A DNA stretch of 35,524 nt, taken from IMG/VR virus record IMGVR_UViG_3300020233_000030, positions 1 through 35,524 of that record. One strand, 5' to 3'. The notes beneath the pieces are model-generated. The model had not been told where the DNA came from. It worked only from the letters and a program-made list of their open reading frames with translations, and did not search any database. The stretch comes from a virus. Below, one piece after another: positions 682-7,921 of this stretch. The translations under genes were made by a program, and so were the position numbers. Within the stretch, counting starts at the first letter, position 1. Each line of letters opens with the position of its first letter.

Positions 682-1938
682 GTGACTGACAACGTGCGCG
701 CCCTCACACCGACACCCGACATGCTCCATATCGAGATGGGTGTCTCAGCGCCCCAACGCATCGCCAGTACACTGTATGACGATTTCCTACCCGAACTGCG
801 AGGCCAACAAGCACTACGCACGTGGCGGGAAATGTCAACAAACGACGCCACCGTCGCCGCCTACCTGTTCGCCATCTCGATGCTTGTCCGTGAAGTGGAT
901 TGGAGTGTCCAACCTGGCGACGAATCCACCCAAGCGAAAACAGCGGCCGACTTCCTCACCGAACAGGTAGACGCGTTGGCGCATCCGCTGTCGGACACGG
1001 TCGGTGAAGCATTCACGTCGTTGGAGTACGGGTTTGCGTTTCACGAAATCGTGTACAAGTTGGATGCAGGTCGGATTGGTTGGGAACGGTTCGCATACCG
1101 GCCACAAGACACACTCATCCGGTGGCAGTTGGATGAACAGCTCAGGCCGACAGCGTTCGTTCAAGGCACACCACGCGGCGGCACCATCGCCATCCCCACC
1201 GACACGAAAGGTATTCTGTTTCGTATGGACACCACCACCCCATCCGGCACACCCATCCTCCGCGGTGCATACCGGTCGTGGATGTTGAAGAAGAGGGCTG
1301 AAGAGTATTTGATGATCGGCATGTCACGCATGTTGAACGGCCTACCAATGGCACGCATCCCCGCCCACATTCTCGCGGCTGGGCCCGGCAACCCGATCTA
1401 TGACGCATTCAAACGCACCGTCACCCGTGTCAAGCGTGATGAGCAGATGGGTATCTTGTTGCCGTCCGACACTGATCCGAACGGTGTTCCGATGTACACG
1501 TTCGAACTGCTATCACCGACCGGTAACCCACAGTTCGACCAAATCGTGTCCGTCATCAGAATGTTTGCCTCCGATATGACTGCAACTGTCCTGGCACAGT
1601 TCATGAATTTGGGCCGCGACGCTGTCGGATCTAGAGCACTCGCTGAGCCGCAGCAGGAACTGTTCCAAACCGCCCTGGGTGCACAGATGGACATGCTCGA
1701 AAACGTCTTCAACCGTCAAGCCGTCCGACCACTGTTCGATTTGAACCCGTCACTGTCGGGGCCGAGGCCGAAGATTGTGCACAGCGATGTGAAAGACGTC
1801 GACATGACCGGCCTAGCGGAGCTCATGTTGAAGACGTCTCAAGCCGGTGCCGTCTGGTTCACCGGTGAAGAAGACGATCCGGCGTTGGCACAGTTGAAAG
1901 ACATGGCAGGCTTCGACGCCGACACCAAGATCGAATAA
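682..1938 (+). CDS. Portal protein (DUF935 / Mu gp29-like)
   Basis: The portal forms the dodecameric ring at one head vertex through which DNA is packaged and released. The 418-residue length suits the DUF935 (Mu gp29-like) portal group. The N-terminal part (about 40-80) holds a helix-rich segment with TWREMSTNDATVAAYL, and SLEYGFAFHEIVYK (about 113-126) is typical of this group. A long helical region with RMFASDMTATVLAQF (about 290-305) fits the stem and clip. It lies between TerL and a MuF-type gene, the normal order. The GTG start lacks a Shine-Dalgarno sequence and may be leaderless. The stop TAA overlaps the MuF ATG by one base. Confidence 0.85.
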   Translation: MTDNVRALTPTPDMLHIEMGVSAPQRIASTLYDDFLPELRGQQALRTWREMSTNDATVAAYLFAISMLVREVDWSVQPGDESTQAKTAADFLTEQVDALAHPLSDTVGEAFTSLEYGFAFHEIVYKLDAGRIGWERFAYRPQDTLIRWQLDEQLRPTAFVQGTPRGGTIAIPTDTKGILFRMDTTTPSGTPILRGAYRSWMLKKRAEEYLMIGMSRMLNGLPMARIPAHILAAGPGNPIYDAFKRTVTRVKRDEQMGILLPSDTDPNGVPMYTFELLSPTGNPQFDQIVSVIRMFASDMTATVLAQFMNLGRDAVGSRALAEPQQELFQTALGAQMDMLENVFNRQAVRPLFDLNPSLSGPRPKIVHSDVKDVDMTGLAELMLKTSQAGAVWFTGEEDDPALAQLKDMAGFDADTKIE

Positions 1939-4838
1939 TGCTCGTCGTCAAGACGGCCGACCCGGACTGGCAGCTCATACACGCGGCCGCGGACAAGCTG
2001 GCACCGAAACTTCGCACCGCATTCCGGGAAGCGTTCGACACACTCGCGGCACTCCTACCCCTCAACGACCTGACCGACCTGCTCGAAGCTGAAGCGTTCA
2101 ATGAACTGTCCGCACTCATAGCCGACCTCAGGTTGCCCGATATGGCACCGTTGGTGAACCTGCTCGCTAGCGCGCAAGTCACGACTGCGACAGCTATCGG
2201 CATCCGTTTCGACGTGCCGTCGCCAGCCATCTACACACTCAACAATCCGGACATTCTCCGATGGACCACCAGACGAGTCTCCGATCTGATAGTCGGCGTC
2301 ACCCAAGAAACAAAGAACGCTGTCACCAGCATTGTGCGTCAAGGCTTCATTGACGGTATCCCGGTACGTGTCCAAGCCAGACAGATCAGGCGCGTGGTTG
2401 GGTTGACGAACCGTGACGCCGGTGCTGTGCAACGGTTCCTCACCGGACAACTCGAAGCCGGCATCAAACAAGCCAGAGCCGAGACGATGGCGCAACGAAT
2501 GACAGACCGTCTCAAACTGCGACGTGCCGACGTGATAGCACGCACCGAATCTATACGTGCATCCAACCAGGGACAGCTACAAGCCTGGCGTGACCTGATG
2601 GACGCAGGCGGACTCGACCCGACCGTCACACGTCGTGTCTGGGTCGCGACAATCGACGACCGCACATGTTTCCCTGCCGGTACGCGTATATCAACGCCGG
2701 ACGGTGACAGGCCAATAGAAGCACTGGAACCGGGCGACATAGTTGACACGCCGCAAGGTCCGATGCCTATAGCAGCGACCGTTGGAACCTGGTGCAAGGA
2801 TGAATGGGTTGCAATTGTCGACTCCACCGGTCAGTTGACGATCTCGACAGCGGATCACGAATGGTGGTCAGATGGTTGGGTCGAGGCGCAGACACTCAAG
2901 ATCGGTGACTGTCTGCAATCTGTCGAGAACAAGCCGATCTATATCGTCGGTGTTGCCAAGTTCAGTCTCGGAGATGCGGACAACATGCCAGCCGTCTGCA
3001 CGCAACTCGGCATCCCTCGCAGCGTCCTTGACAGGATCATGCCAGTAGTCGCCATCGACCTCAAGGACGATACGGTTACCAACCACGAAATCGAATGTTC
3101 GTGCCCCATATTGATGTTCCTGGATGAACCTGATGCCTTGCCGCTGCAAGGATTCTCTGACTGTAGTTTCGATGCCTGTCTCACCGCGGAAACATCTGTA
3201 GCACCGCGCCGAACAGAAACGTCGATGTCCAGCAGCGGACGGCTTGACCCTGAACTTGTCACCACAATAGCGACAATCGACAAAGACGGGCGGTCGGCGG
3301 CATATCTCAGAGCAATGCCAGATGTCACGTTTCGACGCCCAGAACGATGTGCCGCACGACCTGCAATTCCGATACAGGGTGTGAGCATGTCGGCATGCCA
3401 ACGAACATACACGGTATCGGACATTCATCGACTGAGGAACGGTGAATGTCTTGTTGCATACAGGGCAGATCTTCTCAATCAACACATCCGATTTGTCGGC
3501 GAGGTAACACTGTCGGCTACAGAACCGCCGGTATCGCAAATCGTTTCCTTTGCCAGGACGGAAAGCAACACCGCAATGTTCACAGGTGAAGCTGTCGGGA
3601 TAGATCCGGGTTGCGAGATGGTAACAAACCGTCGTGCAGAAATGGCACTTGCCGCGGGGACGAACCTTAGCGACATATTCGACGCTGCAATAGTCGCAGA
3701 CATAGCGGAGGCGTTTACCGCGTTCTACACCAGTCATATCAACGGTGGCCATCCAGTGTATGATATCACAGTCCAAGGACCGGCATGTTTCTACGCAAAT
3801 GGCGTCCTTGTCCACAACTGCGGCATCTGTGCGGCACTTGATGGGCAGACTGTCGGATTCCTGGAACCGTTCCGCTCCACCGAACAGTACGTCGATTTCA
3901 CCGATTTAGGTACAGGGTTTGTGGCAGAATCGACGAAGCCGTTGCCGGAACCTATCGTCGAACAGACACCCCCCGCACACCCGCTATGTTTACCTGGGGA
4001 TGCTCTCATATCGACCGCTGGCCGCGTCACGGGTGCCACGAAACGGATATTTGACGGGGATATGGTCACTGTCCGCATCGGCAACGGTAACAGCTTCCGC
4101 GCTACCCCGAACCATCCGATACTCACGGACAGCGGATGGGTAGCCTGCGGCGATCTTGTACCAGGCTGCAATGTAGTCAGCGGCGGCAATGTCGATAGGC
4201 GACCATCGGTGAATGTGGATGACAGCTACATGCCATCCACTATTGAAGAAGTAGCGAACACGTTCCTGCATACGGTCAGCGTGTCTGCCGGTCCAGTGCC
4301 AGTTACCGCCAAAGATTTCCACGGCGATGGGGAAGGCTCCGATGTCGCAATTGTAGGGACCGACCTGTTGTTGCGCGACGACCGGTATACCCATGTCACT
4401 GAGCCAACCAGCCATGGTCCGTTCGTTGACAGTGGTATGTGCGGCAGCGTTCGTCTCGACAGTGGCCGCAATTTTCATGCGGTGCTCAACCGTCTGGATG
4501 CTGCCGCGGGCAGCGTCATGGGCGGCGGTGACCTGGTTGGTACGCTGTGCCGTGTCCATGCGCGACCACTTCAACGTTTCAGCTTCGGACTGGCTACGGA
4601 CAGCAACGGCACGTTCGGTGAGTCTGAGTCTGATAGCGCTGCGGGAAACGCCGAGACTGTTCGCGAGTCCGTTCTCAGACTCACCGGCAAGATATCGACT
4701 GACAAGGTCGTCGCAGTCGATCGTGACCCGTTTCATGGCTACGTCTACAATCTTGAGACAACGACAGGATACTACCAGACGAACGGTGTCGTTGTACACA
4801 ACTGTCGCTGTTCCACTGCACTCGTCTTCGACGAATAA
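1938..4838 (+). CDS. MuF-type minor head protein interrupted by two inteins
   Basis: The 966-residue precursor should splice to about 310 residues, the usual MuF length. The exteins are 1938-2666 (243 aa), 3819-3986 (56 aa) and 4803-4838 (11 aa). The N-extein is helical and carries the MuF segment RRADVIARTESIRASNQGQL. The spliced product would read DDRT-CGICAALDGQ ... PPAHPL-CRCSTALVF, the conserved metal-binding signature of MuF domains. The protein helps assemble the head and portal vertex and may be co-injected. Both inteins sit exactly before a conserved Cys, sites where loss by imprecise deletion would be lethal. The ATG overlaps the portal stop. Each intein also encodes an endonuclease on the opposite strand. 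Confidence 0.9.
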   Translation: MLVVKTADPDWQLIHAAADKLAPKLRTAFREAFDTLAALLPLNDLTDLLEAEAFNELSALIADLRLPDMAPLVNLLASAQVTTATAIGIRFDVPSPAIYTLNNPDILRWTTRRVSDLIVGVTQETKNAVTSIVRQGFIDGIPVRVQARQIRRVVGLTNRDAGAVQRFLTGQLEAGIKQARAETMAQRMTDRLKLRRADVIARTESIRASNQGQLQAWRDLMDAGGLDPTVTRRVWVATIDDRTCFPAGTRISTPDGDRPIEALEPGDIVDTPQGPMPIAATVGTWCKDEWVAIVDSTGQLTISTADHEWWSDGWVEAQTLKIGDCLQSVENKPIYIVGVAKFSLGDADNMPAVCTQLGIPRSVLDRIMPVVAIDLKDDTVTNHEIECSCPILMFLDEPDALPLQGFSDCSFDACLTAETSVAPRRTETSMSSSGRLDPELVTTIATIDKDGRSAAYLRAMPDVTFRRPERCAARPAIPIQGVSMSACQRTYTVSDIHRLRNGECLVAYRADLLNQHIRFVGEVTLSATEPPVSQIVSFARTESNTAMFTGEAVGIDPGCEMVTNRRAEMALAAGTNLSDIFDAAIVADIAEAFTAFYTSHINGGHPVYDITVQGPACFYANGVLVHNCGICAALDGQTVGFLEPFRSTEQYVDFTDLGTGFVAESTKPLPEPIVEQTPPAHPLCLPGDALISTAGRVTGATKRIFDGDMVTVRIGNGNSFRATPNHPILTDSGWVACGDLVPGCNVVSGGNVDRRPSVNVDDSYMPSTIEEVANTFLHTVSVSAGPVPVTAKDFHGDGEGSDVAIVGTDLLLRDDRYTHVTEPTSHGPFVDSGMCGSVRLDSGRNFHAVLNRLDAAAGSVMGGGDLVGTLCRVHARPLQRFSFGLATDSNGTFGESESDSAAGNAETVRESVLRLTGKISTDKVVAVDRDPFHGYVYNLETTTGYYQTNGVVVHNCRCSTALVFDE
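2667..3818 (+). other. Intein 1 in the MuF protein (384 aa)
   Basis: The intein begins with Cys in block A (CFPAGTRISTPDG). Block B carries T-A-D-H at intein residues 61-64. It ends with block F (HPVYDITVQG) and block G (NGVLVHN), followed by extein Cys at 3819-3821. All residues for standard protein splicing are present: Cys1, the block B Thr and His, the penultimate His, the terminal Asn and Cys+1. Between blocks B and F lie about 270 residues with no LAGLIDADG or HNH motif in this frame. That linker is the reverse-strand image of the endonuclease at 2868-3752. Confidence 0.93.
2868..3752 (-). CDS. Vsr-like (EDxHD) homing endonuclease, five zinc knuckles, antisense in intein 1
   Basis: This protein of 294 residues (from the ATG at 3752) is encoded entirely inside intein 1 on the opposite strand. 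A longer form could start at the GTG at 3815, opposite the intein's penultimate His codon, and a shorter one at the ATG at 3737. Its N-terminal two-thirds holds five tandem knuckles of the form CxxC-x(13-19)-CxxxC or similar, for example CPVCNKTF...CSLAC and CRYCGDKF...CSARC. The C-terminal third has a Vsr/DUF559-like core: Glu in TGIETTV, Asp in RTFDFVVG, and LEVDGDYWH with Glu and His, then a GWHVVRI strand. That is the E-D-x-H pattern of the I-Bth0305I family. It should cut intein-free MuF alleles to promote homing. No clear Shine-Dalgarno sequence or promoter is seen. Confidence 0.85.
   Translation of the reverse strand: MATVDMTGVERGKRLRYVCDYCSVEYVAKVRPRGKCHFCTTVCYHLATRIYPDSFTCEHCGVAFRPGKGNDLRYRRFCSRQCYLADKSDVLIEKICPVCNKTFTVPQSMNVRYRVCSLACRHAHTLYRNCRSCGTSFWASKRDIWHCSEICRRPPVFVDCRYCGDKFRVKPSAAGHRRFCSARCYRCFRGETGIETTVRESLQRQGIRFIQEHQYGARTFDFVVGNRIVLEVDGDYWHDPVKDAARDAELRADGWHVVRISETELGNTDDIDRLVLDRLQTVTDLECLRLDPTI
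3987..4802 (+). other. Intein 2 in the MuF protein (272 aa)
   Basis: The intein starts with Cys (CLPGDALISTAGRVTGATKR) and has a canonical block B, RATPNHPILTDSGWVACGDL. Block F is HGYVYNLETTTG and block G is NGVVVHN, followed by extein Cys at 4803-4805. The catalytic residues expected for splicing are all present. The roughly 180 residues between blocks B and F show no endonuclease motif in this frame. The opposite strand encodes a nuclease that overlaps almost the whole intein. The insertion is immediately before the CRC motif near the MuF C-terminus, leaving a C-extein of only 11 residues. Confidence 0.93.
3990..4736 (-). CDS. Vsr-like (EDxHD) homing endonuclease with HTH, antisense in intein 2
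   Basis: This 248-residue protein (from the ATG at 4736) lies wholly within intein 2 on the opposite strand. An alternative GTG at 4799 would add 21 residues. An N-terminal helix-turn-helix (residues about 8-40, NGLANSLGVSRSAIRLRL) is followed by a basic, helical linker. The nuclease core comes next: NERTMAGWL, YNCDIG and AVEIFGGNWH supply Glu, Asp, Glu and His, and GWHVAVIHI follows. This core aligns with that of the nuclease in intein 1. The last 60 or so residues lie opposite intein blocks A and B and may be only tolerated read-through. The stop codon pairs with codon 2 of the intein. No strong ribosome binding site is visible. Confidence 0.82.
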   Translation of the reverse strand: MKRVTIDCDDLVSRYLAGESENGLANSLGVSRSAIRLRLTERAVAVRSQSEAETLKWSRMDTAQRTNQVTAAHDAARGSIQTVEHRMKIAATVETNAAAHTTVNERTMAGWLSDMGIPVVAQQQVGPYNCDIGAFPIAVEIFGGNWHWTGRHADRMQERVRYFFNSGWHVAVIHIHRWSPIDIAAADYIAAWYKIAAGYPSAVREYRMVRGSAEAVTVADADSDHIPVKYPFRGTRDAASGRYESIPR

Positions 4839-4860
4839 GAGTATCTGTCATCGTTGTTGT

Positions 4861-4946
4861 TGGAGGAAGGTGGAGGAATCGAACCCCTACCCGTCAAGGT
4901 ACCCGAGGGTTCGAGCCTCGTTGCCAACCATTTAGCGGCACCTTCC
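4861..4946 (-). tRNA. tRNA-Ser (anticodon CGA)
   Basis: Read on the minus strand, the 5' end GGAAGGT pairs with ACCTTCC, followed by T and an encoded CCA (complement of 4861-4863). The anticodon stem CGAGG/CCTCG encloses CTCGAAC, giving anticodon CGA. A class II variable arm (TACC...GGTA) supports serine. The T-loop is TTCGATT. Position 8 is either missing or shared with the acceptor stem. It reads UCG, a codon this phage uses very often by eye. It lies two bases downstream of the Met tRNA on the same strand. Confidence 0.8.
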
Positions 4947-4948
4947 GT

Positions 4949-5017
4949 TGCGGGGGCCGGAATCGAACCGACATTTGCGGCTTATGAGACCGCCGGGCAA
5001 CCAATGCCCCACCCCGC
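4949..5017 (-). tRNA. tRNA with CAT anticodon (Met, possibly Ile2)
   Basis: On the minus strand GCGGGG pairs with CCCCGC. The D-arm is GGGC/GCCC with an ATTGGTT loop. The anticodon stem GCGGT/GCCGC encloses CTCATAA (anticodon CAT), and the T-arm is GTCGG-TTCGATT-CCGGC. CCA is not encoded. The G1-C72 pair argues against an initiator tRNA. Elongator Met or lysidine-modified Ile cannot be told apart here. At about 69 bases it is slightly short, with a six-pair acceptor stem. Confidence 0.78.
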
Positions 5018-5023
5018 TTAGAG

Positions 5024-5067
5024 GCCACCCGGAGTCGCATGAGACCTTCGCGGTCACTCCGGGTGGC
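5024..5067. other. Perfect 12-bp inverted repeat upstream of the tRNAs
   Basis: GCCACCCGGAGT (5024-5035) is the exact reverse complement of 5056-5067. An inner GACC/GGTC stem (5043-5046 with 5052-5055) could extend the structure. No T-run follows on either strand, so a classical intrinsic terminator is not shown. It may insulate the minus-strand tRNAs from the rightward transcript or be a processing signal. Confidence 0.7.
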
Positions 5068-5087
5068 ACTATCTCCGCTCCGCTACA

Positions 5088-5096
5088 TGCTACCCT
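5088..5096 (+). promoter_or_regulatory. Candidate extended -10 promoter
   Basis: TGcTACCCT matches the TGnTAnnnT pattern seen before the genes at 310, 682 and 7979. It stands 27 bases before the TTG start at 5124 and just after a strong hairpin. It could restart rightward transcription for the sugar cassette. There is no clear -35 box. Confidence 0.35.
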
Positions 5097-5123
5097 ACCA
5101 TCAGCCCCGATAGGAGGACATCC

Positions 5124-5309
5124 TTGGCTAAGGAACGAACACCAGCCGACGACTACCGCGATGCCCACCGCGCCTACATAGAGGCTGAACAACGTCACGT
5201 CTACCTGAATGAAAAAGCGCAGACAGCGAGCAATGAAGCGCAACTATTCCACCGGCGGTTAATAGACGCACAACAACAGTTACATGACTGGATAATCGGT
5301 GGTGATTGA
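5124..5309 (+). CDS. Small helical hypothetical protein
   Basis: This 61-residue protein starts with TTG, chosen because taggagg lies about seven bases upstream. The sequence is strongly helical and charged, with many Gln, Glu and Ala residues, and looks like a short coiled coil. It overlaps the start of the PseF-PseG fusion gene by 11 bases, so the two are probably translationally coupled. No family is recognised. Confidence 0.65.
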   Translation: MAKERTPADDYRDAHRAYIEAEQRHVYLNEKAQTASNEAQLFHRRLIDAQQQLHDWIIGGD

Positions 5310-6720
5310 CACACTCGCCGTCATACCAGCACGTGGCGGCAGCACCGAACTCAAACGCAAGAACCTGTTGCCGATAGACGGCACACCCATGTTCCTCCAC
5401 TCCGCACACGCAGCTAGGGACGCAGGCTGCCAAGTCGTCATATCCACCGACGATGCCGAGATTCGTTCCACCGCGATCGTGGCAGGATTCACGGTGCATG
5501 ACCGCGGCCCAGAGTTGGCTGATGTTGTCGTCGATGAGGTTGTCAAGGCTGCAACGGAGGGTTGGGACGGGCCGATACTGTTGGTGCAACCCACCGTGCA
5601 ACCAATCACCGCCGAGATCCTCACCGACTTCATACGAAACACCTCTGAGGTGGGTTGTCTCACTGCTGACAACACGCATCAGCTATGGAGCAACGGAGGC
5701 TGGATAACACCTCGCGTCAACAGACAAGACCGCCCTCTGAGCTCGCTGGTAGCACAGGAGCTCGGTATCAGATATTGGGCAACCGTTGCCGATATTGGCA
5801 AAGCTCCAACGCCGGTGCCTATGCCGTTCTCAGTCAACGATCTGGTCGACATCGACACTGCCAGCGACTACCGCTCGATCACGATTCCGAGATGTGTCGC
5901 GTTGTGGCCGATCGCTGACCAGACACACGGTATGGGTCATCTACGTCGCTGTCTCGCCATCGCCGAACAGCTACAACACCACCACATCGAGTTTGTGATA
6001 GACGACGTCGACGACGACATGTTGGAGATACTCGTCGAACGCGGCTGGCCATTCGAAACGTTTGCCGGTATCACAGACGACCATACCCCAGACTTGTGGA
6101 TTCTGGACAGGCTCGATAACACGGACATGCCGCAGCTCGACGGCAAGGTTGTGACATTCGAAGACGAATCGGACTATCCGGACGATGTGAAAATTGATGC
6201 CCTATATGAGGATGGTGTCGACTGGTGTGTCCTGAGGCCAGAATTCACAGCCGGCAGCTACCACGTCACCGACCAGACACATTCGTTGAAACTGTTAGTC
6301 ATGTTTGGCGGCACCGACCCCAGCCGGTTAGGTGCACGAATCTCGGAACTGTTTCCACACCACCAGCTTGAATGGATACAAGCTGGCGATGACAAGCCGG
6401 TAGCCGAACTGATGCACCAAGCCGACATTCTGATCACGTCGGCGGGTAGGACAGTGTTCGAAGCCGCCGCGGTCGGCATCCCTACCATCGTCCTGGCACA
6501 GAACCTGCGGGAGACGACGCATACGCATCTCGGGTATCGGCACGGCAACATCTATCTCGGGCTCGGCAAGCTTGTCACAGACCGTCAGATCCAAACCACC
6601 GTCGCGACACTCGAAGCCGACACCGGGTTGCGGCATGATTTGTCTGTACTCGGCAGACCAGACGGGTTAGGCTTACAGCGTATAGTTCATCGTATCGAGG
6701 CGCTACTGGGAGGTCTCTGA
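5299..6720 (+). CDS. PseF-PseG fusion: CMP-nonulosonate synthetase plus UDP-sugar hydrolase
   Basis: Residues about 1-195 are a cytidylyltransferase of the PseF/NeuA type, with IPARGGSTELKRKNL at the CTP site, and activate a nine-carbon sugar acid with CMP. Residues about 200-473 resemble PseG, which removes UDP from the 2,4-diacetamido sugar precursor. GMGHLRRCLAIAEQL carries the His expected to be catalytic (His17 in Campylobacter PseG), and LLVMFGGTDPSRLG and SAGRTVFEAAAVGIPTIVL form the nucleotide-binding C-lobe. In most bacteria these are separate genes. The adjacent PseI-like gene at 6914 provides the step between them. The start is GTG at 5299 or 5302. Legionaminic pathways use a different (NeuC-like) hydrolase, so a pseudaminic-type product is favoured. 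Confidence 0.82.
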   Translation: MVIDTLAVIPARGGSTELKRKNLLPIDGTPMFLHSAHAARDAGCQVVISTDDAEIRSTAIVAGFTVHDRGPELADVVVDEVVKAATEGWDGPILLVQPTVQPITAEILTDFIRNTSEVGCLTADNTHQLWSNGGWITPRVNRQDRPLSSLVAQELGIRYWATVADIGKAPTPVPMPFSVNDLVDIDTASDYRSITIPRCVALWPIADQTHGMGHLRRCLAIAEQLQHHHIEFVIDDVDDDMLEILVERGWPFETFAGITDDHTPDLWILDRLDNTDMPQLDGKVVTFEDESDYPDDVKIDALYEDGVDWCVLRPEFTAGSYHVTDQTHSLKLLVMFGGTDPSRLGARISELFPHHQLEWIQAGDDKPVAELMHQADILITSAGRTVFEAAAVGIPTIVLAQNLRETTHTHLGYRHGNIYLGLGKLVTDRQIQTTVATLEADTGLRHDLSVLGRPDGLGLQRIVHRIEALLGGL

Positions 6721-6917
6721 TGAATCGGACAGAACAACTGTATGCCGTACTCGAATCACGCTACGAGGCACACATCGAACATGTCGACGACACGTTCGTC
6801 GCGACTGTTTGGTTGGTGACGAAGACGGACCGTAGCAGGTTGGCGACGTTCATCGACGTCGATGAACGGTCTGCTAGGGACGCAGCGTACATGTTTCTGA
6901 TGGAGCGGCCACGGTGA
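6720..6917 (+). CDS. Small hypothetical protein in the sugar cassette
   Basis: This 65-residue protein is joined to both neighbours by four-base-type overlaps: ATG at 6720 overlaps the stop of the fusion gene, and its stop overlaps the GTG of the synthase gene. The middle looks like alternating beta strands (FVATVWLVTKTD). It has no membrane segment and no recognised domain. The context suggests an accessory role in the nonulosonate pathway, but the sequence gives no direct support for that. Confidence 0.6.
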   Translation: MNRTEQLYAVLESRYEAHIEHVDDTFVATVWLVTKTDRSRLATFIDVDERSARDAAYMFLMERPR

Positions 6918-7921
6918 GGCGTCTGGTTGCTGAGATAGGTTCAGCCAACGGCGACCTCCAATACGCACTCGACTGTGTGGATGCGTTCGCAGACGCTGGC
7001 GTGTCGATGATCAAGGGCCAGTTGTATACGGCTGACACGTTGACGTCGAAGACTGCGAAACCGTATGGGAAAGGCATCGTCGAGCCTGCCACCCAGCATG
7101 AAGCATTCTCCAAGACGCTAGACATCGCTGATTGGGCTGTGGTGCAAGACCGATGTGATCATCGTGGCATCAAGTTCTTCGCATCAGTGTTCAATGTGCA
7201 AGCTGTCGACACCGGTGTCGAGCAGCGTTGGTCTGCGTTCAAAATTGCATCGGGTGACATCACATACCGTATGCTGATTGAACAGGTAGCTGAGGCGTGT
7301 GAAGCGTCTGGTGCGTCGATGATTCTGTCCACAGGCGGTTCTACCCTGTCCGAGATTGAACGGGCCTACAACTGGATTCGTGATATCACTAAGAATGTCT
7401 ATGTGATACTGCTCGTCTGCACCCTGTCATACCCAACCAAGATCGAGGACGCACACGTCGACCGCATCACCACATTCCAGAACCTCGGTTACAATGTTGG
7501 CTATTCGGACCACACACGTGGCATCGCGGCAGCCGACTACGCATACCGGCTCGGTGCCACGATGGTTGAGAAACATGTCACGTTGACACCTGGCGCTGGT
7601 GGGGATCACGACTTTGCCATCACCCCTGCCGATGTGAAACAGTTGATGGCTGGTGAAGTGACTGGAGAATGGGACTGTGTAGCTGCTGGCGATTCGGAGA
7701 TCCGGATACACACCTGCGAGCTCGACGCTCGTATCGGTGCACGTAGGTCGCTGCACGCTGCTGTCGACATTGTTGAAGGTGACACAATCAGGCCGTGGCA
7801 TATCAGGACTGTGCGGCCAGGCGGCGGTATTGAACCGTACCAACTCGAACAGGTTGATGGCAGTCGGACAACATGCCATGTCGCGGCGGGTACGATGCTT
7901 GACTGGTCGATGCTCACCTGA
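6914..7921 (+). CDS. Nonulosonic acid synthase (PseI/NeuB-like)
   Basis: This 335-residue enzyme condenses a six-carbon amino sugar with phosphoenolpyruvate to make a sialic-acid-like sugar. The TIM-barrel motifs of NeuB/PseI are clear: GVSMIKGQLY (substrate Lys), STGGSTLSEIERA, VCTLSYPTKIEDAHVD, VGYSDHTRGIAAADYA, LGATMVEKHVTL and GGDHDFAITP. A C-terminal antifreeze-like SAF domain (about 275-335, RRSLHAAVDIVEGDTI) is also present, so the enzyme is full length. The GTG at 6914 overlaps the preceding stop. With the PseF-PseG fusion it covers the last three steps to the CMP-sugar; the earlier steps must come from the host. Confidence 0.88.
   Translation: MRRLVAEIGSANGDLQYALDCVDAFADAGVSMIKGQLYTADTLTSKTAKPYGKGIVEPATQHEAFSKTLDIADWAVVQDRCDHRGIKFFASVFNVQAVDTGVEQRWSAFKIASGDITYRMLIEQVAEACEASGASMILSTGGSTLSEIERAYNWIRDITKNVYVILLVCTLSYPTKIEDAHVDRITTFQNLGYNVGYSDHTRGIAAADYAYRLGATMVEKHVTLTPGAGGDHDFAITPADVKQLMAGEVTGEWDCVAAGDSEIRIHTCELDARIGARRSLHAAVDIVEGDTIRPWHIRTVRPGGGIEPYQLEQVDGSRTTCHVAAGTMLDWSMLT

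Follow-up and report, generated by a model that had tools for sequence, protein, structure and literature searches.

How can one stretch of DNA carry an unbroken phage head gene on one strand and two nuclease genes on the other? The question is raised by virus record IMGVR_UViG_3300020233_000030 of IMG/VR (35,524 nucleotides; "the window" means this whole stretch), in which one continuous open reading frame (ORF) of 966 codons (1938..4838, plus strand) encodes a MuF/SPP1 gp7-like minor head protein with two in-frame inteins inside, each overlapped by a nuclease gene on the minus strand. Very probably, each intein is a mobile splicing element whose homing endonuclease is a separate, codon-aligned antisense gene, and the two represent two lineages that arose by separate captures. 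It is also likely that they belong to a large, hitherto unrecognised class of inteins with frame-decoupled homing endonucleases, in which a full gene is threaded through the intein antisense (rarely on the same strand in another frame), with frames dictated by the genetic code, at least two origins, and links to freestanding, split and fused forms at the same sites; the MuF genes would then be a large set of genes coding on both strands.

Inteins, nucleases and their shared core

The host ORF matches Pfam families Phage_Mu_F (expect value, E, 1.2e-5) and Intein_splicing (E 5.9e-11), and its PHROG match is to head morphogenesis. Intein 1 (2667..3818, plus strand, 384 amino acids, coordinates read off the sequence) is inserted before the first Cys of a DDRT/CxxC motif (DDRT/CGIC in the window; slashes mark junctions) and has Cys1, block B (STADH), block F (VYDITV) and VHN/C. 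Intein 2 (3987..4802, plus strand, 272 amino acids) is inserted before the Cys of an HPL/CRC motif and has Cys1, TPNHP, VYNLET and VHN/C. With Cys1, the T..H of block B, block F, His-Asn and a +1 Cys in place, both are by motif Hint-domain inteins, and protein splicing is predicted for both. Neither is split into separate ORFs, and neither has a nuclease domain in frame within it, as a canonical homing intein would; the nucleases sit on the opposite strand, in frames in which every antisense codon is the exact reverse complement of one sense codon.

Nuclease 1 (2868..3752, minus strand), antisense to intein 1, combines a reader region of five zinc knuckles (3201..3698, minus strand; five CxxC...CxxxC units) with a Vsr/DUF559/MTES_1575-like catalytic core (2949..3191, minus strand; ETxIE ... 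DF ... EVDGDYWH ... RD). Nuclease 2, antisense to intein 2, runs from an ATG at 4734-4736, opposite the His of block F, to a TAA that is the reverse complement of Leu codon TTA at 3990-3992, the second codon of intein 2, right after Cys1; the originally predicted extent of 3990..4736 (minus strand) is thus correct. It consists of a helix-turn-helix (4614..4715, minus strand; modelled helices at residues 8-41, with a predicted local distance difference test score, pLDDT, of about 90), a helical linker and a Vsr-like core (4191..4439, minus strand; YNCD ... VEIFGGNWHW ... GW). The helix-turn-helix is matched by HTH_58 in the window protein (E 0.064) and by HTH_7 in a relative (E 1.7e-9), and Pfam places HTH_7 in 6 of 10 members of the nuclease-2 family; several relatives carry extra upstream reader sequence, and the window protein has one helix-turn-helix. 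These matches bear out the proposal that a helix-turn-helix and linker stand in nuclease 2 in place of the zinc knuckles.

The proposal that the two nucleases share a catalytic core, and not a DNA-binding domain, also holds. BLASTP aligns them over 70 amino acids (E 0.002), and hhalign of the family profiles (10 type-2 and 6 type-1 sequences, the types being named after the two nucleases) gives a probability of 96 (E 4.6e-9), with alignment over the core only. Pfam MTES_1575 is found at E<=0.01 in 6 of 10 nuclease-2 members and all 6 nuclease-1 members, with the scores of both window nucleases lying under Pfam's own cut-off; DUF559 and Vsr matches are confined to type 1. AlphaFold models (mean pLDDT 80.4 for nuclease 2 and 79.2 for nuclease 1) have the same best Foldseek match in PDB, the catalytic domain of I-Bth0305I (3r3p), at E 8.3e-4 and 2.2e-5, respectively, and the nuclease 2 model matches 1vsr with probability 1.0. 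The nuclease 1 profile also finds 3r3p (E 3e-13) and Vsr 1cw0 (E 0.0022) by sequence; a sequence search of PDB with nuclease 2 gave no match, 3r3p included. By profile and by model, then, the cores are homologous and Vsr-like (I-Bth0305I-type). The alignment of nuclease 1 keeps E, D, H and D (the residues of the catalytic motif EDxHD), all in invariant columns; in nuclease 2, E105 is near-invariant, D131, E140 and H147 are invariant, and no invariant Asp follows WH.

Coding on both strands

The first relatives of nuclease 2 encountered in viral contigs were all antisense within a MuF-like intein (9 of 9). A type-2 profile search then gave 181 relatives, of which 80 were kept, together with six from bacterial genome contigs; tblastn found nuclease-2 relatives in 125 phage records, of which 18 were opened. 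One plasmid record was also recovered. Of 96 non-redundant nuclease-2 loci, among them some from Salmonella, Gordonia, E. coli and Vibrio phages, 94 have an open codon-aligned reverse frame, and 108 of the 110 type-2 loci examined, some of them overlapping or duplicate, lack a stop in it. The two exceptions, L102 (an Acinetobacter phage) and L140, are freestanding nucleases beside an intein-less MuF gene. All 11 nuclease-1 intein loci are without sense stops.

Openness was compared with expectation by counting the nuclease codons that would read as stops on the sense strand (TTA, CTA and TCA), with expected numbers taken from local synonymous usage. Hits of at least 60 bits were clustered at 90% identity, leaving 134, and loci with too few reference codons were skipped (5 of 94 type-2 intein loci; L196, treated separately). 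None was observed in 89 intein-borne nuclease-2 loci (359.7 expected) or in 10 intein-borne nuclease-1 loci (41.5 expected), as against 144 (128.3 expected) and 11 (9.6 expected) in two sets of 26 and 2 other loci, together 155 against 138 in 28. The loci had been gathered by nuclease similarity alone. Those counted as free include L096 and L202 (same frame open, no intein blocks; excluded from the intein sets of the rate analysis and later analyses), L030 (fused), L199 (split) and L201 (same strand). At L196, where the nuclease has a guanine-cytosine (GC) content of 0.29, there are no sense stops (17.4 expected), and TTA, which makes up 21 of 36 Leu codons in the host gene, is absent from the nuclease.

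Substitution rates point the same way. Across 506 type-2 intein pairs, the splicing blocks evolve fastest at sense position 3, and the middle at sense position 1, which is nuclease position 3, so that the selected strand switches twice within one ORF; type 1, with only 6 pairs, mostly has the same pattern, two middle segments being reversed. The contrast is weaker in the N-terminal splicing block of type 2 (0.34-0.38 versus 0.42-0.47), opposite which the nuclease tail is conserved; this block may be truly double coding, although the rates are only suggestive. Of 105 intein-borne loci, 93 have a nuclease frame that runs unbroken through the matched stretch, and most of the other 12 stop near the C-terminus. 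Early nuclease stops with the sense frame still open occur at L210 (codon 4) and L152 (codon 39), which look like decaying nucleases, as expected where splicing stays needed.

By these counts and rates, both coding frames are real. That the antisense frames are mere shadow ORFs of a sense strand that alone codes, kept open by GC content (0.56 in the window; in GC-rich genomes, the codon-aligned antisense frame of a gene is often free of stops), is next to impossible, and is refuted as far as sequence can tell by the stop-codon counts and codon-position rates, for the antisense proteins resemble nucleases of known family and fold, conservation falls on nuclease codon positions 1 and 2, and the frames are open even at nuclease GC contents of 0.29 (L196) and 0.33 (L105). 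It is also very unlikely that the nucleases are real and the sense frame through them goes untranslated, the inteins being split, dead or bypassed. L199, with its halves in separate ORFs and 9 sense stops, is such a case, but the absence of stops in 94 of 96 nuclease-2 and 11 of 11 nuclease-1 loci, the intact splicing motifs, and the same counts and rates speak for rejection elsewhere.

As originally predicted, the ATG of each window nuclease faces a His just ahead of block F; for nuclease 1 this is 3750-3752 (minus strand), with a second ATG at 3735-3737. The placement is conserved in the nuclease-2 family, where 70 of 88 loci have an ATG between codons -8 and +3 relative to block F (63 counted at exactly -1 or -3), the remainder having GTG (10), TTG (3) or no start (5). 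The His codon at block F is CAT in 63 type-2 cases and CAC in 7, against 29 and 46 for the penultimate His (Fisher p 5e-11), an excess that points to selection for ATG. The prediction does not extend to the nuclease-1 family, in which an ATG is near block F in 2 of 11 (the window and L011) and the conserved N-terminus of most others begins elsewhere. The alternative GTG start proposed opposite the penultimate His is uninformative, as it follows automatically from a CAT or CAC codon in this frame. It is rejected for type 2, where the stretch up to block F evolves as sense-coding sequence, and the GTG at 3813-3815 of nuclease 1 is without support.

Sites, frames and origins

The two kinds of intein keep to different sites. 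All 11 nuclease-1 inteins precede the first Cys of CxxC, and nuclease-2 inteins precede the CRC-type Cys except at L104, where, read by eye, a type-2 unit occupies a third position, ahead of the second Cys of the CxxC motif; the motif parse recognised no C-block in six type-2 loci, and its result for L169 is an artefact. Separate nucleases nested in inteins are all codon-aligned antisense but one, at L201:2587-5163, where a MuF-type intein has its nuclease on the same strand and is read in frame +2 to it. When the dipeptides that force a stop whatever codons are used are counted, the same-strand frames have 5 (+1) and 0 (+2), and the antisense frames 0 (codon-aligned), 6 and 5. The frames seen are the frames without forced stops, which can accommodate any nuclease with its amino acid sequence unchanged. 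The genetic code would thus explain the frames used; the account was fitted after seeing the data, but it gains support from the one exception, L201, which uses the remaining frame without forced stops.

Other arrangements occur at the same sites. In L030:2021-4780, a MuF gene has inteins at both sites of the window: the first site holds a mini-intein, and the intein at the CRC site includes its nuclease as an in-frame fusion (DUF559 E 2.7e-17). In L199:3668-7261, a portal-MuF-IntN ORF and a separate IntC-MuF ORF, possibly a natural trans-splicing pair, are divided by an antisense zinc-knuckle nuclease. Freestanding nucleases convergent with an intein-less MuF or portal-MuF gene are found for type 1 at L012, L016-L018 and L198 (with a gap of 2 bases at L198) and, convergent with an intein-less MuF gene, for type 2 at L102 and L140; an Rfam scan of nine loci for introns around freestanding nucleases gave no match at gathering score. 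Outside MuF genes, an antisense zinc-knuckle nuclease apparently divides a DNA methylase gene of Mycobacterium phage Camster (L096:2674-4963) in two; no intein blocks are visible there, and gene 55 is annotated on the strand opposite the nuclease. L038 and L036 have intein blocks in genes that by eye resemble DNA polymerase and ribonucleotide reductase, respectively, near other Vsr-like nucleases.

Two histories had been offered for the window: that the arrangement arose twice with related nucleases, or that a single ancestor was duplicated inside a MuF gene, with one of the copies swapping its reader domain for another. Profile hidden Markov models of the N-terminal splicing block tell the two intein types apart among 103 placed loci, the window ORF scoring with both. 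The proposed comparison of nuclease-core and splicing-domain phylogenies was made with about 40 hand-picked rows of the 96 of type 2 and all usable rows of type 1, a sample that also served the test of topology (the core tree lacks L032, L109 and L041). In the splicing-domain tree, 11 nuclease-1 and 37 nuclease-2 inteins fall on either side of a 98/99 branch, each with its own nuclease type, and the two splicing domains of the window are 24.5% identical. In the core tree, 32 zinc-knuckle rows form a 100/98 clade in which 11 intein-borne, antisense rows are mixed with 21 others, and the approximately unbiased (AU) test rejects a single clade of all intein-borne cores (p 1.5e-7). Duplication with reader exchange is therefore improbable. 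It would account for the common core, the identical antisense frame and the presence of both units in one gene, but it does not sit with splicing domains in separate clades or with zinc-knuckle cores that cluster with freestanding zinc-knuckle nucleases, and the shared frame is expected regardless, since codon-aligned antisense never forces a stop. The type-2 freestanding nucleases L102 and L140 nest among intein-borne rows of the core tree, so escape from inteins also seems to occur. Most likely, then, the antisense layout arose by at least two separate captures of related nucleases, an unrooted tree and the occurrence of escape keeping this from being proof.

In type 2, core distances follow splicing-domain distances (Mantel r 0.73, 90 loci) and much less those of the N-extein (0.25, 88 loci); nuclease and splicing domain are inherited jointly, apart from the host gene, and type 2 looks like a unit moving between MuF genes. 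Several points weigh against the reading of these inteins as mobile elements with separately captured antisense nucleases. The N-extein aligns poorly, so the low type-2 correlation may partly be noise, and in type 1 (11 inteins) the correlations are 0.73 with the splicing domain and 0.80 with the N-extein, which leaves joint inheritance apart from the host gene not distinguishable there. The core tree rests on 87 columns with 36 of 69 branches open, and the AU test leaves the type-1 intein-borne cores as one clade unrejected (p 0.19). The labels of the codon test rest on openness of the sense frame, making the contrast between intein-borne and other loci partly circular. The C-terminal Asp residues that are invariant in nuclease 1 have no counterpart in nuclease 2, whose catalytic set may therefore differ. 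Finally, a scan of 2500-5400 found no promoter-like site on the nuclease strand, one on the plus strand (1.6 expected) and no terminators, and so lends antisense transcription no support.

Proposed mechanism and relation to known systems

Under the favoured reading of a mobile intein with an antisense endonuclease gene, the sense strand would be translated throughout, the two ends of the intein ORF forming the splicing domain and its middle, the reverse complement of the nuclease, serving as a linker that only must stay open. On the antisense strand, translation of nuclease 2 would begin at an ATG opposite block F, and that of nuclease 1 at one near it. The nuclease would cut an intein-less MuF allele at the insertion site, with the DNA-binding module reading the site and the Vsr-like core cutting, and repair would then copy intein and nuclease together. 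The two window inteins would represent two lineages, each bound to a site of its own, whose nucleases are distant relatives. A plausible source of capture is the kind of nuclease that adjoins intein-less MuF genes, a freestanding neighbour having become an antisense passenger. It is unlikely that the nucleases are past homing and are kept for another role, such as cutting the MuF genes of rival phages: freestanding relatives adjoining intein-less MuF genes could exclude rivals in this way, but the joint inheritance of type-2 nuclease and splicing domain, the weak link to the host gene and the site specificity resemble homing, with which such a role is in any case compatible.

Past the MuF gene, the minus strand also carries two tRNA genes, Ser-CGA and Met-CAT (4861..5018), which on that strand lie shortly before nuclease 2 and could form one antisense transcription unit with the nucleases. 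A strong inverted repeat is visible by eye near the tRNA genes at about 5024-5070, and two ORFs at 5299-7921 resemble, by eye, genes for nonulosonic (sialic) acid sugars.

In the textbook view, a homing intein is a splicing domain fused to an endonuclease. Canonical examples such as PI-SceI share with those of the window the Hint domain and a site-specific nuclease in the central part of the element, whereas the window nuclease is a separate polypeptide from the other strand; the fused form occurs at the same MuF site in L030. The fractured genes attributed to Dassa and co-workers reportedly contain split inteins with a free Vsr-like nuclease ORF. They have the nuclease superfamily and a separate ORF between intein halves in common with the window, where, by contrast, the inteins are continuous and overlapped antisense; L199 resembles a split antisense form. 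I-Bth0305I, the best PDB fold match of both cores and the best sequence match of nuclease 1, comes from an intron, going by its PDB name ("Mobile intron protein"), whereas the window nucleases lie in inteins, and it has other DNA-binding parts. Group I introns with antisense homing endonuclease genes exist, and likewise place the gene antisense inside a splicing element, but an intron need not stay open as protein, while the window inteins code on both strands. In collaborative homing, as described in PMC2988022 and PMC10448857, a freestanding nuclease lies next to its target gene. The nucleases of L012, L016, L102, L140 and L198 similarly adjoin a gene with the insertion site; the neighbouring genes there are intein-less, and the link to homing is a candidate one.

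No antisense endonuclease inside an intein is described in the literature found, as far as titles, the openings of abstracts and passages of PMC3229294, PMC8966425, PMC6801210, PMC10448857, PMC2988022 and PMC7090010 show; bioRxiv and Dassa et al. 2009 lay outside the search, and it is not established that such inteins are previously undescribed in print. In public annotation, the sense strand is a head or hypothetical gene with no nuclease annotated opposite in 17 of the 18 phage records opened; the sole exception, L102, has its nuclease annotated as a hypothetical protein, and the record of phage Snoke has the intein itself annotated. PHROG 15127 (head protein) covers residues 684-907 of the MuF ORF, including the stretch opposite nuclease 2, and this "head protein" profile thus probably contains a nuclease shadow.

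In these inteins, two separate gene products share one stretch of double-stranded DNA. With this layout, the nuclease would no longer need to fold inside the intein or depend on capsid-gene expression, at the price of avoiding three codons. Antisense overlapping genes can be studied here in a clean natural system in which the freestanding relatives serve as controls, and the layout offers a path linking nucleases that stand free with split inteins and with continuous homing inteins. An unannotated nuclease lies opposite a head gene in many public phage records, those of cultivated Salmonella, Gordonia, E. coli and Vibrio phages among them.

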